Assembly: GCA_017454215.1 (NCBI GenBank)
Contig: JAFTDL010000270.1
Coordinates: forward strand, 1 to 39,202
DNA: 39,202 bases
Reading direction: 5' to 3'
Origin: Lentisphaeria bacterium
GTDB lineage: Bacteria > Verrucomicrobiota > Lentisphaeria > Victivallales > Victivallaceae
Shown in pieces: positions 9,387 through 16,659 of the stretch (within the stretch, counting starts at the first letter, position 1; each line of letters opens with the position of its first letter). The notes under the pieces were generated by a model. It worked only from the letters and a program-made list of their open reading frames with translations. It searched no databases and was not told the origin of the DNA. The position numbers and the translations under genes were made by a program.

Positions 9387-11132
9387 ATGGCAGAATCCCA
9401 AACCGCAAAAGAGAAGGTCGTCGGCGTCAACGGCAACCTCATCACCGTGCAGTATACCAGCCGCGTCATGCAGAACGAAGTGGCCTACGCCCGCGTCGGC
9501 GACACCCGGCTCAAATGCGAAGTCATCCGCGTGCGCGGAGACGTGGCCGATCTGCAGGTATTCGAGAGCACCAACGGGCTCAAGGTCGGCGACGAGGTCG
9601 AGTTCACCGGGGAACTGCTCTCCGTCGAGCTGGGGCCCGGACTCCTGACCCAGGTCTACGACGGTTTGCAGAATCCCCTCAAACTGCTGGCGGAGCACTC
9701 CGGCTTCTTCCTCAAGCGCGGCGTCTATCTGCGGGCCCTCGACCGCGAAAGGCGCTGGCACTTCACCCCCTGCGCCAAGGCCGGAGACGAAGTGAGGCCC
9801 GGCGACCGCATCGGCAGCGTTCCCGAGGGGATCGTCAAGCACTACATCATGCTCCCCTTTTCGTGGCACGGCGCGTGGCGTCTGGAGTCCGTAGCATCCG
9901 AAGGAGACTACACCATAGACGACGTCATGGCCGTGGCCGTGGACGAACAGGGGGTGAAACGCAATGTCACCATGACCCAGTTCTGGCCGGTGAAGGTCCC
10001 CATTTCGGATTACGCCGAGAAACTGCTGCCCGAGCGCACCATGGTGACCCAGATGCGCACCATCGACACCTTCTTCCCCGTGGCGGTGGGCGGCACGTTC
10101 TGCACGCCGGGACCCTTCGGCGCGGGCAAGACCGTTCTTCAGCACTCCATCAGCCGCTACGCCGAAGCGGACGTGGTGGTGGTGGCCGCCTGCGGCGAGC
10201 GCGCGGGCGAAGTGGTGGAGATCCTGCGCGAGTATCCCGAGCTCGAGGATCCCCGCACGGGACGCTCCCTCATGGACCGCTCCATCATCATCTGCAATAC
10301 CAGCTCCATGCCCGTGGCCGCCCGCGAGGCCAGCGTCTACACGGCGGTGACCCTTGCGGAATACTACCGGCAGATGGGACTCAACACCCTGCTGCTGGCC
10401 GACTCCACGTCGCGCTGGGCTCAGGCCCTGCGCGAGATGTCCGGCCGTCTGGAGGAGATCCCCGGCGAGGAATCTTTCCCGGCGTACCTCGAATCGCGCA
10501 TTTCGGACTTCTACGAACGGGCGGGCTTCGTGCGGCTGCGCACGGGCGAGACCGGTTCCGTCACCATCGGCGGCGCGGTCAGTCCCGCGGGCGGCAACTT
10601 CGAGGAGCCGGTCACTCAGGCGACCCTCAAGGTGGTGGGCGCGTTTCTGGGCCTCTCCCGCGAGCGCTCCGACGCCCGCCGGTATCCGGCCATCCATCCG
10701 CTGGACAGCTGGAGCAAGTACAAAAGCCTCGTCGATCCCCGAAAACTCTCTCTCGCCCGCGGCATCCTTGCGCGGGGCAGCGAAGTCAATCAGATGATGA
10801 AGGTCATCGGCGAGGAGGGAACCAGCATCGACGACTACATCGTCTATCTCAAAAGCGAATTTCTTGATTACGTGTTTCTGCAGCAGAACACCTTCGATCC
10901 CGTCGACGCCAGCACTTGCGCCGACCGCCAGCGTTACGTGTTCGACAAGGTCTGCGGCGTGCTCGACCGCGCCTTCGCCTTTGCCGACAAGGACGCGGCG
11001 CGGCGCTGGTTCCTCGAGCTGCGCCAGCTCTTCCTCGACTGGAATTACATTCCCTGGCAGGGCGAGGCGTTCAAGGTGCAGGAACAGGCCATCGACAGCA
11101 AACTTGCCGGCGCTGCCGCGGAGGTGAAATAA
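9387..11132 (+). CDS. atpA: V-type ATP synthase catalytic subunit A
   Basis: 581 residues; ATG at 9387 after AAGGAGG. N-terminal beta-barrel (about 1-70), the non-homologous bulge region specific to A subunits (about 110-200, [20 protein letters not shown]), nucleotide-binding domain with Walker A GPFGAGKT at 242-249, and a C-terminal helical domain. [10 protein letters not shown] and [20 protein letters not shown] are hallmark segments of the catalytic core. It hydrolyses or makes ATP at the A/B interface. Its TAA shares one base with the next ATG, so A and B are translationally coupled and made in equal amounts. Direction of use (Na+ or H+ pump versus synthase) cannot be told here. Confidence 0.98.
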
Positions 11133-12427
11133 TGCGCAAGGTCTATCATAAAATCAGTCATATCGCGGGCAACGTCATCACCGTCGAGGCCGACGGCGTG
11201 GCCTACAACGAACTGGCCGAAGTGGAGAGCGCCCGCGGCGTTTCGCTGGCTCAGGTGATCCGGCTCGACGGCAGGAAGGTGTCGCTTCAGGTCTTTGCCG
11301 GCAGCCGCGGCATCAGCACGAAGGATCAGGTGCGTTTCCTCGGTCATGAAATGCAGGTCTCGGGTTCCCTCGATCTGCTGGGCAGAGTCTTCAACGGCCG
11401 CGGCGTTCCCCGGGACGGGCGGCCCGACGTCGATACCGAACTGGTGGAGATCGGCGCGCCTTCGGTCAATCCGGCCAAGCGCATCATTCCGCGGAACATG
11501 ATCCGCACCAACATTCCCATGATCGACCTCTTCAACACGCTGGTGGAATCCCAGAAACTGCCCATCTTTTCAGTGGCGGGCGAGCCCTACAACGAACTTC
11601 TGGCCCGCATCGCCCTGCAGGCCGAGGTGGACGTGATCGTGCTGGGCGGCATGGGCATGAAGTACGACGACTATCTCATTTTCCGGCGCACCCTCGACGA
11701 GCGCGGCGCGCTGTCGCGCACGGTGATGTTCATCCACACCGCCGCCGATCCGGTGGTGGAGTGCCTGATGGTGCCGGACCTCTCCCTCGCCGTGGCCGAA
11801 GCCTACGCGCTGCGGGGCAAACGGGTCCTCTGCCTGCTCACCGACATGACGAACTTTTCGGACGCCCTCAAGGAGATCGCCATCACCATGGAGCAGATCC
11901 CCTCCAACCGCGGTTATCCCGGCGACCTTTACAGTCAGCTGGCCTCGCGTTACGAGAAGGCCGTGGACTTCGACGGCGCGGGCTCCATCACCATTCTCGC
12001 CGTGACCACCATGCCCGGCGACGACGTGACCCATCCGGTGCCGGACAACACCGGCTACATCACCGAGGGGCAGTTCTATCTGCGCAACGGGCGCATCGAG
12101 CCTTTCGGATCCCTTTCGCGCCTCAAGCAGCAGGTGAACGGCAAGACCCGCTCCGACCACCGGGCCATCATGGACGCCATGATCCGGCTTTACGCCGAAT
12201 ACAAGAGCACCCTCGAAAAGCAGTCCATGGGTTTCAAGATGTCCGCGTGGGACAACAAACTGCTCAAGTACGGTTCCCGCTTCGAGGCCGAGATGATGTC
12301 CCTTGCAGTCAACATCCCCCTCGAGGCCGGACTGGATCTCGGCTGGAAGATCCTCGCCGACTGTTTCGACAAAACCGAGATCGGCGTCAAGACCGATCTG
12401 CTTGACCGGTACTGGCCCGGAAACTGA
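11132..12427 (+). CDS. atpB: V-type ATP synthase regulatory subunit B
   Basis: 431 residues; ATG at 11132 in a TAATG junction with subunit A. It opens [30 protein letters not shown] and contains [65 protein letters not shown] and [21 protein letters not shown], all typical of V-type B subunits. As expected for B it lacks a Walker A motif; the equivalent position is SVAGEPYN. Length fits the bacterial family. It alternates with A in the hexameric head. The next gene starts 2 nt after the stop. Confidence 0.98.
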
Positions 12428-12429
12428 CC

Positions 12430-13038
12430 ATGGCGAAGATCAAGTTCACCAAGACCGAGCTCAAGAAGCAGCAGGACAACAAGAAGCAGTTCGAGCGCTT
12501 CCTGCCGACTCTCCAGCTCAAGAAACAGCAGCTCCAGATGGAGGTGCGTCAGAGCGCCGAGGCGCTGGAGGAGAATCTCCGCGAACAGCGGCGGCTCGAA
12601 AAGGAACTGGCCGTCTGCATCGCGTTTTTCGGCGACGCCGCCGTGTCGGAACTGGTCTCTTCCAACGTGGTCATAAGCCGGGTCGTCACCGGAACGGCCA
12701 ACATCGCCGGGATCAATATCCCGACCTTCGACCACGTGGAGTTCGAACCGCAGCACATCGACCTCATGACGACGGACTGGTACGTGGACGATGCGCTGGC
12801 GGCCCTGAAGAGCGCCGCTTCGCTGCGCGAGGCGCACCGCGTGCTTCAGGTGCAGTACGATCTGCTGGCGGCCGAACTGCGGACCACCAGTCAGCGGGTC
12901 AATCTTTTCGAGAAGGTCAAGATACCGGAGTGCAAAGAGAACATCCGCAGGATCTGCATCTTCCTCGGCGACATGAACACCAGCGCCGTGGCCCGGTGCA
13001 AGATCGCCAAGGGCAAGGCGGAGGAACGGGCGTCGTAA
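12430..13038 (+). CDS. atpD: V-type ATP synthase subunit D (central stalk)
   Basis: 202 residues. KIKFTKTELKKQQDNKKQFERFLPTLQLKKQQLQMEV is the N-terminal half of the long antiparallel coiled coil of the rotor; the C-terminal helix contains TSQRVNLFEKVKIPECKENIRRICIFLGDM, the diagnostic end of D subunits. It rotates within the A/B head and couples ATP turnover to the membrane rotor. In related operons subunits I and K come next; here the stop is followed without any gap by an acetyltransferase. Subunit F and C genes are also not seen in the window. Confidence 0.95.
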   Translation: MAKIKFTKTELKKQQDNKKQFERFLPTLQLKKQQLQMEVRQSAEALEENLREQRRLEKELAVCIAFFGDAAVSELVSSNVVISRVVTGTANIAGINIPTFDHVEFEPQHIDLMTTDWYVDDALAALKSAASLREAHRVLQVQYDLLAAELRTTSQRVNLFEKVKIPECKENIRRICIFLGDMNTSAVARCKIAKGKAEERAS

Positions 13039-13458
13039 ATGCGCATACGTCTTCTTGCCGCCCTTTCCGACGGGGAACTGCTCTGCGCTTCACGGCTTTA
13101 CGCCGCGGCGGACTGGGTGGAGAAGGACGCCGATTTTTCCTTCATCCGCGCGGCGGTCGCGGGATCCTTCCTGGCGGCGGGGGCGTTCGAAGACGGGCGT
13201 CTCGTCGGCATGGGCAGGGTCCTCTCGGACGGGTGTTCCGACGCGTACATCCAGGATGTGGTCGTGGATCCCGCCTTCCGGGGCAGGGGCATCGGAAGCG
13301 CTCTGGTGACGTTTCTCGCGGATGAGACGCGTTCCCGCGGCGTGGACTGGATCGCCCTCGTCGGCGAGCCGGGGACCGAAAATTTTTACGCGCGTCTCGG
13401 ATTCGAGCGCAAAGAGGGTTTTACATTGTGGAAGCGGCCTGAGAGCCGCCCGGAGTGA
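13039..13458 (+). CDS. GNAT family N-acetyltransferase
   Basis: 139 residues; the ATG directly follows the stop of subunit D, with GGAGG inside the end of that gene. The acetyl-CoA motif A is clear: YIQDVVVDPAFRGRGIGSALV, with the RGRGIG pyrophosphate loop, followed by motif B (WIALVGEPGTENFYARLGFERKEGFTLWKR). Size and ending match small cytoplasmic GNAT enzymes. The acceptor is unknown. It lies between V-ATPase and cell-wall genes in one transcript, which gives no clear clue to function. Confidence 0.9.
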   Translation: MRIRLLAALSDGELLCASRLYAAADWVEKDADFSFIRAAVAGSFLAAGAFEDGRLVGMGRVLSDGCSDAYIQDVVVDPAFRGRGIGSALVTFLADETRSRGVDWIALVGEPGTENFYARLGFERKEGFTLWKRPESRPE

Positions 13459-13477: not shown

Positions 13478-15550
13478 ATGGGCGATCTGAAAAGCAGAGT
13501 GGAGTCCGCGGTCCCGGGGATCCGGCTGCGCACGAACGTGTCGTACAAGGAACTGACCACTCTCGGCGTGGGGACCGATCTGCCGCTTCTGGCCGAGCCG
13601 GAAAACAATGAACAGCTCCGGAAACTTCTGCGTTTCGTGCGCCGCACCGGGACGCCGTATTTCGTCTTCGGCTCGGGCAGCAACGTCATCGGTATGGATA
13701 TGCCCTACCGGGGACTGGGGATCCGCCTCGCCGGTGAGGAATTCAGCCGCATCGAGCGCCGCGACGGCGTCTTCATCTGCGGCGCGCGGGCCCAGCTGGC
13801 CGAACTTGTCAATGCCGCGGCGGCGGCGGGGCTGGCCGGCGTTTCCGGTCTGGCCGGGATCCCCGGCACCATCGGCGGCGCCGCCCGCATGAACGCCGGC
13901 GCCAACGGCGTGGAAACGGGCTCCGCCGTCACCGGGATTTACGGGATCTCCGCCGACGGAACTCCTCTGGTCATGGAGGGAAAAACCCTCGAATGGCGCT
14001 ACCGCAAAGGTCCCGTTCCCGACGGCGCCGTGGTGACCAGTGTGAAGTTCGAACTTGCGCCCTCGACGCCTGAGGCCGAGAAGCGCATCATTTCCGAGGT
14101 CCTGGCCGCGCGCCGCGAACGGGAGCCCCGGGGCCGCACCGCCGGATGCGCCTTCCGCAACGTCTCCGGGACCGAGCCCGCCGGAAAACTCATCGACCGG
14201 TGCGGTCTCAAGGGCCTGCGCTGCGAGGACATGCAGATCAGCGACAAGCACGCCAACTACATGGTCAATCTCTCCGGCGACACCATGGCGTCGGATTATC
14301 TCCGGCTGCTGATCTTCATCCGCCGGGCCGTCAGCGACCGCAGCGGTTTCTTTCTCAAGCTGGAGCAGATCCCGGTGGATCCCGAATTCGAGAAGACCCT
14401 TTACCGCGAAGTGCCGGCCATCAAGGTCAACGTGCTGTGCGGCGGCGTCAGCAGCGAGCGCGAAGTCTCTCTGCGCAGCGGCAGCGCCGTGGCCGAAGCT
14501 CTGCGCAACGGCGGTTTCGACGTGGAACTGTCGGACATCACCAGGTGCCGCATCACCGGGAGCATGCGCAGCTGCGACGTGGTTTATCCCGTGCTTCACG
14601 GAGGCTTCGGCGAGGACGGCCGCATCCAGAAGCTCATGGAGAGGGAGGGGGTGCGTTTCGCCTGTTCCGGTTCCGCGGCCTGCGCGGCGGTGATGGATAA
14701 GATCGTCACCAAACGGCTGCTGGACAAGACCAAAATGCCCACCGCCCCGTGGCGGATCGTGACGCGGGACAACTGCGCTTTTCCCGAGGAACTGGGTCTG
14801 CCGCTCATCATCAAGGTCCCCAACGAAGGCTCCACCGTGGGCATCGTCAAGGTGGACCGCAAAGAGGACTGGGTCAAGGCGCTGGAGAGCGAATTCAAAC
14901 TGGCCGACGAACTTCTGGTGGAGTCGTTCATCAAAGGTATCGAGATCTCCGTTCCGGTGGTCTGCGGCAAGGCCTTCGAGGCCATTGAAATACGCAGTCC
15001 CAGCGGCTTCTACGACTGGGACGCGAAGTACGTCTACAAGAACGGTCACACGCAGTATTTCTGTCCGCCCGAATCCCTGAAGAGCGAGGAGATCGCCCGG
15101 GCGAAACAGCTGGCCGAGGCGTTTTATTTCGTCACCGGCTGCCGCGATCTGGTGCGGGTGGACTTCATCGTGGCTCCCGACGGCACGCCGTACATCCTCG
15201 AAGGCAACGCGCTGCCCGGATGCACCGCCACCAGTCTGGTCCCCAAGGCCGCGCAGGTGGGCGGCATCTCCTTCGAGGCGCTCACCGCGGGCATGGTGTA
15301 TTCGGCCATGCGCCGTCCGATCTTCCGGACCGGCGGGGAGTCCGGAAGCAGCATCGTCACCGGCCGCCTTGCCCGGGTGTGCCTGTGGATGTTCCGCATC
15401 ACGCTGGTGCTCTGTGCCCTCGTCCTCGCGACCAGCGGTCTTGTGGCCCTCTTCACGGGACTGCCCGGCTGGCCGCTGGTGGTGGCCGCCGGACTCATGG
15501 TGCTGGCCGAGATCATGTTCACCTGGCTCAAATCCATAGGTAAAAAATGA
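13478..15550 (+). CDS. murB-ddl: MurB-Ddl fusion: UDP-N-acetylenolpyruvoylglucosamine reductase / D-Ala-D-Ala ligase with membrane tail
   Basis: 690 residues; start at 13478 with AGAGGA upstream. Residues ~1-305 are MurB: YKELTTLGVGT, GSGSNV (65-70), GIPGTIGG (127-134), AGCAFRN (Cys224 at the place of the proton-donating Ser of E. coli MurB). Residues ~315-620 are a D-Ala-D-Ala ligase of the ATP-grasp fold: VNVLCGGVSSEREVSLRSG, HGGFGEDG (374-381), GSTVG near 450, LEGNALPG. Residues ~634-690 hold two hydrophobic segments ending GKK, predicted membrane anchors. The enzyme would join two cytoplasmic peptidoglycan precursor steps. The frame is continuous through both domains. Chlamydiae have a MurC-Ddl fusion, so this is a different pairing. 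Its TGA overlaps the next ATG. Confidence 0.93.
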   Translation: MGDLKSRVESAVPGIRLRTNVSYKELTTLGVGTDLPLLAEPENNEQLRKLLRFVRRTGTPYFVFGSGSNVIGMDMPYRGLGIRLAGEEFSRIERRDGVFICGARAQLAELVNAAAAAGLAGVSGLAGIPGTIGGAARMNAGANGVETGSAVTGIYGISADGTPLVMEGKTLEWRYRKGPVPDGAVVTSVKFELAPSTPEAEKRIISEVLAARREREPRGRTAGCAFRNVSGTEPAGKLIDRCGLKGLRCEDMQISDKHANYMVNLSGDTMASDYLRLLIFIRRAVSDRSGFFLKLEQIPVDPEFEKTLYREVPAIKVNVLCGGVSSEREVSLRSGSAVAEALRNGGFDVELSDITRCRITGSMRSCDVVYPVLHGGFGEDGRIQKLMEREGVRFACSGSAACAAVMDKIVTKRLLDKTKMPTAPWRIVTRDNCAFPEELGLPLIIKVPNEGSTVGIVKVDRKEDWVKALESEFKLADELLVESFIKGIEISVPVVCGKAFEAIEIRSPSGFYDWDAKYVYKNGHTQYFCPPESLKSEEIARAKQLAEAFYFVTGCRDLVRVDFIVAPDGTPYILEGNALPGCTATSLVPKAAQVGGISFEALTAGMVYSAMRRPIFRTGGESGSSIVTGRLARVCLWMFRITLVLCALVLATSGLVALFTGLPGWPLVVAAGLMVLAEIMFTWLKSIGKK

Positions 15551-16659
15551 AACGACTGTTTGCTGTACTGTTTCTGATCCCGGGGCTTGCGGCATTTTCC
15601 GCGCCGCTGGCCATCGGGGAGAAGATGACGAGCATGCCGGTGGGCGTCTGGTATAAGAACGCTCCGGCTCCCGTGGAGCAGTGGCTCGGCAAAAAGACCT
15701 TCGCCGTGTTTTTCATCACGCCCGCGGCGCCCGACATTCTGGCGCTCCGCCGCGTCGAGCAGGTGGCCGGAGCGTTGAAAAAGCAGGGCGTCGGCGTGTT
15801 CTATTCCTCCCCGGGCCTGCCGAAGAATCCCTCGAACGTGCCGGCGTGGAAGGATGTGAAGACCCCGGTGATGTTCGATCTCAAATCGGACCTCTTCGAG
15901 CTCCTGAGCGGCAAGTTTGAAAAGATCCCCTTCGCGGCGGTCATCACGCCGAAGGGGGAACTGGCCTGGCGGGGCAGGATCGAGCGGGTCCCGGCGCTGC
16001 TCGGGGAACTTGCTTCGGGCAAATACCGCATCCCCGACGCCGCCCGCCGCGAAAAGTTCACCGAGGGCCTCGACGTTCTGCTCCGCGCCCGGAAGTATCA
16101 GGAGGCGGTGGACGCCATCACCGCCGAGCAGAAATTCGAACCGGCCAACACGGAACTGGTGGGTCTCAAATGCAATCGTGTGTGGCGGCGGCTGAAAAAT
16201 GCCGAAGCGGCCTTTCGGGAGATCGACCGGGCGCTGGCGGCCGATCCCTCGCTCTTTGCGCTGTACGACTTCAAACTGCGTTTCATGCGTCAGGCCGCCC
16301 CCGGCCGGCCCGTGATGCCGGTCTTTCGGGAGATGGCCGCCAAATTCGGCGACAAGCCCGCATTGCTCATGGCTCAGGTCTCCCGCGAAATGAACGTGCC
16401 TCTGGCGGAGATGTGTCCGCAGGGCGCCCTGCTTCTGGCCCGGACGGCGGCTTCGTCGCCGAAATTCAAGGACCGTCAGGAGGAGGGGTTCGCCCATCTG
16501 TGTTACGCGCGGATACTGCACTACTGCGGCCGGCCCGGACCGGCCGCGGCCGAGGCCGGCAAGGCCGCGAAGCTCCTGACCGGAAGAAGCGCAAAACTTG
16601 CGGAAATGGTGGAAAAGCACTTCCGCATCATCGAGAAACTGTCAAAAACTCTTGAATAG
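15547..16659 (+). CDS. Secreted thioredoxin-fold protein with helical repeat tail, no CXXC
   Basis: 370 residues, ATG in an ATGA overlap with murB-ddl. Signal peptide at 1-19 (MKRLFAVLFLIPGLAAFSA). Residues ~45-165 resemble a thioredoxin/TlpA-like fold (KKTFAVFFITPAAPD, then TPVMFDLKSDL, IPFAAVITPKGELAWRG), but the site expected to hold CXXC reads TPAAPD (58-63), so it is not a redox enzyme of the usual kind. The C-terminal ~190 residues are helical and TPR-like (ARKYQEAVDAITAEQKFEPANTELVGLKC). Probably periplasmic, with a binding or scaffold role; function unknown. Confidence 0.75.
   Translation: MKRLFAVLFLIPGLAAFSAPLAIGEKMTSMPVGVWYKNAPAPVEQWLGKKTFAVFFITPAAPDILALRRVEQVAGALKKQGVGVFYSSPGLPKNPSNVPAWKDVKTPVMFDLKSDLFELLSGKFEKIPFAAVITPKGELAWRGRIERVPALLGELASGKYRIPDAARREKFTEGLDVLLRARKYQEAVDAITAEQKFEPANTELVGLKCNRVWRRLKNAEAAFREIDRALAADPSLFALYDFKLRFMRQAAPGRPVMPVFREMAAKFGDKPALLMAQVSREMNVPLAEMCPQGALLLARTAASSPKFKDRQEEGFAHLCYARILHYCGRPGPAAAEAGKAAKLLTGRSAKLAEMVEKHFRIIEKLSKTLE

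Follow-up and report, generated by a model that had tools for sequence, protein, structure and literature searches.

The locus described here raises two questions: why a gut-dwelling Lentisphaeria bacterium encodes the peptidoglycan precursor enzymes MurB and Ddl in one gene, and where the two hydrophobic helices at the end of the gene product came from. The gene lies in the window, i.e. the whole stretch of DNA that was analysed (39,202 nucleotides; contig JAFTDL010000270.1 of assembly GCA_017454215.1).

The murB-ddl gene and its product

The frame starts with ATG and runs through 690 codons without interruption. An earlier in-frame ATG at 13322 would give a product of 742 aa; the start at 13478 is preferred, because homologues begin near this position and the purine-rich GAGGAAAAG is found upstream of its ATG. 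In the protein, a complete MurB is joined through a linker of 19 residues to a complete Ddl, behind which comes a tail that holds two hydrophobic helices. The ORF, Pfam matches, hydropathy, and structure model thus bear out the original prediction of a one-frame MurB-Ddl fusion that ends in two such helices. Coordinates of the features are given in Table 1.

Table 1. Positions in the window of the murB-ddl gene, the segments of its product, and neighbouring genes.
Feature	Position	Strand	Basis or remark
V/A-type ATPase subunits A, B, D	9387-13038		precede the GNAT gene
GNAT acetyltransferase (upstream neighbour)	13039..13458	+	
murB-ddl fusion gene with predicted C-terminal membrane tail	13478..15550	+	690 aa; single open frame; Pfam/NCBIfam; kept in relatives
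MurB domain, residues 14-296	13517..14365	+	NCBIfam PRK13905, E 3.1e-63; best PDB match 2gqt
MurB-Ddl linker, 19 residues	14366..14422	+	modelled as an ordered helix (302-311)
Ddl (DdlB-type D-alanine--D-alanine ligase) domain, residues 316-611	14423..15310	+	PRK01372; PDB 4c5a/1iov; invariant columns
C-terminal tail, residues 612-690, two hydrophobic helices	15311..15547	+	hydropathy; AlphaFold model; separate homologous ORFs in related genera
Modelled tail helix, residues 629-659	15362-15454	+	AlphaFold
Modelled tail helix, residues 665-689	15470-15544	+	AlphaFold
Downstream gene	15547..16659	+	370 aa; overlaps the fusion stop as ATGA; no Pfam match

In the MurB part, FAD_binding_4 (residues 38–163) and MurB_C (205–296) match above the Pfam gathering cut-offs. 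TIGR00179 and PRK13905 also match strongly, at 116.3 and 213.4 bits, respectively, which is below their cut-offs for whole proteins of 144.5 and 259. In an alignment of 28 homologues, Cys224 and Glu296 are invariant and Arg176 is nearly invariant. These correspond to the MurB active-site residues (the Ser/Cys proton donor, the Glu, and the Arg, respectively). 2gqt too has Cys at the position of Cys224, in an AGCAF motif. The domain and its catalytic residues predict NADPH-dependent reductase activity, by which UDP-GlcNAc-enolpyruvate would be reduced to UDP-MurNAc.

In the Ddl part, Dala_Dala_lig_N (362–396, one of two stretches) and Dala_Dala_lig_C (418–607) are above the gathering cut-offs, and PRK01372 passes its cut-off of 243 with 284.6 bits. 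The half was aligned to the solved Ddl chains 4c5a and 1iov. Residues K408, K446, E482, E489, K517, Y518, R560, D562, E575, and N577 are invariant in the same 28-homologue alignment; the catalytic residues of Ddl are among these, Lys517-Tyr518, Arg560, Asp562, Glu575, and Asn577 included. The domain and the kept residues point to Ddl activity, and this part would join two D-alanines for MurF.

The AlphaFold model of the fusion has a mean pLDDT of 89.4 and a pTM of 0.81. Both enzyme parts match solved MurB and Ddl structures in the PDB comparison, and the model shows an ordered linker helix and a terminal helical hairpin.

Distribution and integrity of the fusion

The genome set comprised 60 genomes, mostly of the genus, family, and order of the window and including the window's own. 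A single match crosses the MurB-Ddl junction in 50 of these, the window genome among them, and the fusion is common to the order. Named Lentisphaeria metagenome-assembled genomes, mostly from animal gut, also carry it.

Between the window and the relative G032, changes at codon positions 1/2/3 number 35/20/101 in MurB, 2/0/7 in the linker, 24/17/93 in Ddl, and 17/10/38 in the tail, i.e. change is biased to the third position in all four segments. A frameshift hidden between the domains, allowed for in the original prediction, is contradicted by this pattern and the junction-crossing matches, and an assembly or frameshift artefact was rejected on the same grounds. Stand-alone murB and ddl were looked for in the assembly of the window's genome (83.6% complete, 372 contigs), and no second MurB_C or Ddl_N match was found there. 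It is extremely improbable that the gene is an artefact, or an inactive relic beside working murB and ddl in the unassembled part. The incompleteness of the assembly and the additional Ddl-like gene of some relatives (e.g. G008, G041, G059) leave some room for a relic, but the same frame recurs in dozens of independent assemblies, all its segments show the third-position bias, and its catalytic residues are invariant.

The assembly of G005, of the same genus and 97% complete, has a MurC match, but no MurB-Ddl or MurB match. Separate MurB-like frames of ~342 aa, distant from the fused MurB, occur on contig C37 of G042 and contig C27 of G049; G049 also has the fusion.

Genomic neighbourhood and other mur genes

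In the relative G440, the gene at the place of the downstream gene encodes an AhpC/TSA-thioredoxin-like protein with TPR. The window's genome has murC as a separate gene on contig C200, murE and murF on C284, and mraY on C114; hence the Mur genes of this lineage are scattered. On C114, the gene after mraY is dxr, which belongs to the isoprenoid pathway (L194:304-2594).

The murC gene (L062:1483-2727) contains one in-frame TAG, which replaces the second Glu codon of a conserved EADESD motif (GAA in G032). This TAG may be an error of the assembly or a genuine nonsense mutation. TAG also ends the normal downstream gene of the window.

In family f4, MurC is fused to IspD (2-C-methyl-D-erythritol 4-phosphate cytidylyltransferase) at L157:823-2826 and at L158, the latter also with a longer N-terminal frame. 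Cell-wall synthesis and isoprenoid synthesis are thereby linked in a single polypeptide.

Origin of the MurB-Ddl fusion

MurB and Ddl do not act next to each other in the pathway, but their genes usually stand side by side, in the order murC-murB-ddl. In other orders of the Lentisphaeria, single frames of ~1020–1110 aa with all the Pfam domains encode MurC-MurB-Ddl triples (L066–L072 and L074–L077). In the loci read from other classes of the phylum, MurC and MurB are fused and ddl is an ORF of its own directly behind; triples were suggested there too by the search output, but reading of the ORFs revealed a stop between murC-murB and ddl. Since the three genes are neighbours and all three are fused in other orders, the double is best read as a triple minus MurC. 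The original prediction was right that MurB is joined to Ddl, but its view of this as a skipping of the MurC–F steps gives way to an explanation by gene order and the triples. The distinct solution within the PVC group that it proposed stands in altered form, as one of several fusions in a graded series that follows gene order.

In a tree of MurB+Ddl, a branch with support of 100 divides doubles and triples from the loci that have MurC-MurB + ddl; the doubles group together with 100, and the triples lie together on one side of a branch with 93. Because of this position of the triples, the tree alone leaves it unsettled whether the triple or the double is older. The Ddl tree separates doubles, triples, and the locus L078 (see below) from the remaining sequences with support of 95.8, and the MurB tree agrees weakly with this grouping (76). 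In a carefully built MurC tree, the stand-alone MurCs of the window's order are sister to MurC of the triples of family f9 (97/99) and lie inside a paraphyletic set of triples. One clade of these stand-alone MurCs and those of family f11 was rejected (p 0.009); the triples as one clade were not quite rejected (p 0.07).

Alternatively, MurB and Ddl may have been fused independently from adjacent murB and ddl, MurC being gained by the triples later or independently, so that the double would be ancestral or parallel. The single side occupied by the triples in the MurB+Ddl tree is in keeping with this, as are the other-class loci in which ddl lies directly behind murC-murB or overlaps its end: with ddl so placed, fusion by loss of one stop would be easy and could recur. 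This course is credible but unlikely, given the place of the order's MurC inside the paraphyletic triples, the similar linkers (12–19 residues across all doubles and triples read), and the common side of doubles and triples in the Ddl tree. Most probably, the window's double goes back to a triple from which MurC was lost, although the trees do not prove this. Family f11, which has separate MurC and MurB and a different (DdlA-like) Ddl, calls for one or more additional splits or replacements in a history with a triple ancestor.

Another part appears to have been lost in G070 (97% complete), where one frame (L078:2377-5724) encodes MurC, ~200 residues, and Ddl. The middle residues have recognisable MurB ends and no Pfam MurB domain; a separate MurB-like frame, cut by the contig end, is present on L166 of this genome. 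L078 is best read as a MurC-Ddl fusion that arose in place from a triple, its MurB having probably shrunk to a remnant.

Origin of the C-terminal tail

The best 19-residue hydropathy means of the two tail stretches are 2.53 and 1.96. Positive residues precede the first helix and follow the second, and the loop of the window protein has none. Hydropathy, model, and charges fit a predicted membrane hairpin whose two ends would lie in the cytoplasm.

Most of the loci read from genus g1 and from g24 of family f1 have the tail, and none of those read elsewhere in the order has it, other families included. It is missing in some members of the tailed clade (G026, G030, and G123), hence it is dispensable. 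Directly behind murB-ddl, a separate two-helix ORF of ~70 residues is found in G083, G326, and G440 (g26) and in G144 (g32); the same ORF lies behind a partial ddl at the contig end in G329 (g81). A search profile built from 12 tails matched the separate ORFs with E values of 3.9e-4 to 7e-13. These ORFs overlap or abut the end of murB-ddl, with a redoxin-like gene coming next, and in the MurB+Ddl tree the genera that have them sit beside the tailed clade. Descent of the tail from the redoxin-like gene was rejected, since the small gene, where separate, lies between it and murB-ddl.

Capture of a downstream gene for a small membrane protein best explains the tail, which would have been lost again in a few members. 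It is distinctly unlikely that a fused tail was ancestral and split off later in the separate-gene genera, or that the helices are a structural or dimerisation pair and not an anchor. The tree alone does not fix the direction, separate-tail and tailed genera being neighbouring groups, and conservation of the tail sequence is loose (mean column identity 37%); on the other side, the separate ORFs have starts of their own that overlap the ddl stop, no tail turned up in the other families of the order, hydropathy is at transmembrane level, and the flanking charges fit two cytoplasmic ends. As a captured gene confined to part of one family, the tail lies outside the basic design of the fusion.

A different and larger membrane extension is encoded at L145:3690-7262 (G354), where the MurB-Ddl frame runs on for ~580 residues that have no Pfam match and include seven hydrophobic stretches.

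Proposed function and course of events

The explanation that best covers the whole locus, and that we consider probable, is a bifunctional cytoplasmic enzyme with the following history. In the ancestor of the class, murC, murB, and ddl would have been fused to one triple gene. MurC would then have been released to a separate gene in the window's order, leaving MurB-Ddl, and in part of one family a gene for a small two-helix membrane protein overlapping the ddl stop would have been read into the frame. The captured tail would hold both catalytic domains at the cytoplasmic face of the membrane. That it places precursor synthesis near MraY, as the original prediction proposed, is a hypothesis. 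Frame, domains, conserved active-site residues, distribution, triples, and separate tail homologues are observed directly, while the two activities, insertion into the membrane, and the sequence of events are inferred. The fusion itself would fix co-production and co-location of two enzymes from formerly neighbouring genes; substrate channelling was set aside as its reason, because the MurB and Ddl reactions have no common intermediate.

A wider proposal is tentative, its chances being a little short of even: that the class had a trifunctional ancestor from which parts were lost (MurC here; MurB in G070, whose case may serve as a model for the chlamydial fusion), and that one family made the enzyme membrane-integral through the captured gene. 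If true, early steps of peptidoglycan synthesis that are normally soluble would be brought to the membrane in one family. The captured tail would be a natural test of whether holding early precursor enzymes at the membrane is of benefit, as models of a multi-enzyme Mur complex have it, with tailed and tail-less relatives as ready controls.

Comparison with known Mur-enzyme fusions

Fusions of Mur enzymes are already known as a kind; neither a MurB-Ddl nor a MurC-MurB-Ddl fusion is named in the literature searched (subscription papers lying mostly outside the search), and both forms are apparently unreported in it. A MurC-MurB (MurB/C) fusion is known from Verrucomicrobium spinosum and other Verrucomicrobiales/Methylacidiphilales (PMC4803751). 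It resembles the window's fusion in its origin from murC-murB-ddl neighbours, in including MurB, and in belonging to the same superphylum, but its partner is MurC, at the N-terminus, ddl is a separate gene, and there is no membrane tail. The window protein has no Pfam match to a Mur ligase domain and is thus not of the V. spinosum type.

In the MurC-Ddl fusion of chlamydiae, for which PMC4803751 cites McCoy and Maurelli 2005, Ddl is C-terminal and the partner is not adjacent to Ddl in the pathway, as in the window protein, but that partner is MurC and not MurB. The model for the chlamydial protein, NF011171, matches the window protein in the Ddl half only, with 98.1 bits against a cut-off of 1015. 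The MurC-[MurB remnant]-Ddl frame L078 of G070 resembles the chlamydial fusion in arrangement.

The MurE-MurF fusion of Bordetella, elongated and flexible by SAXS, joins consecutive pathway steps (PMC6420597). Like the window's fusion, it unites two cytoplasmic precursor enzymes from cluster neighbours in one chain; unlike it, its steps are consecutive and no membrane tail is reported. The triples of other Lentisphaeria orders have a homologous MurB-Ddl half and a similar short linker, and differ by the additional N-terminal MurC and by having no tail.

Fusions of non-consecutive Mur enzymes, such as the chlamydial MurC-Ddl, have so far been without a clear reason. The series that runs from murC-murB with ddl behind it through the triple to MurB-Ddl and MurC-remnant-Ddl suggests that gene order together with loss of parts can yield such fusions.
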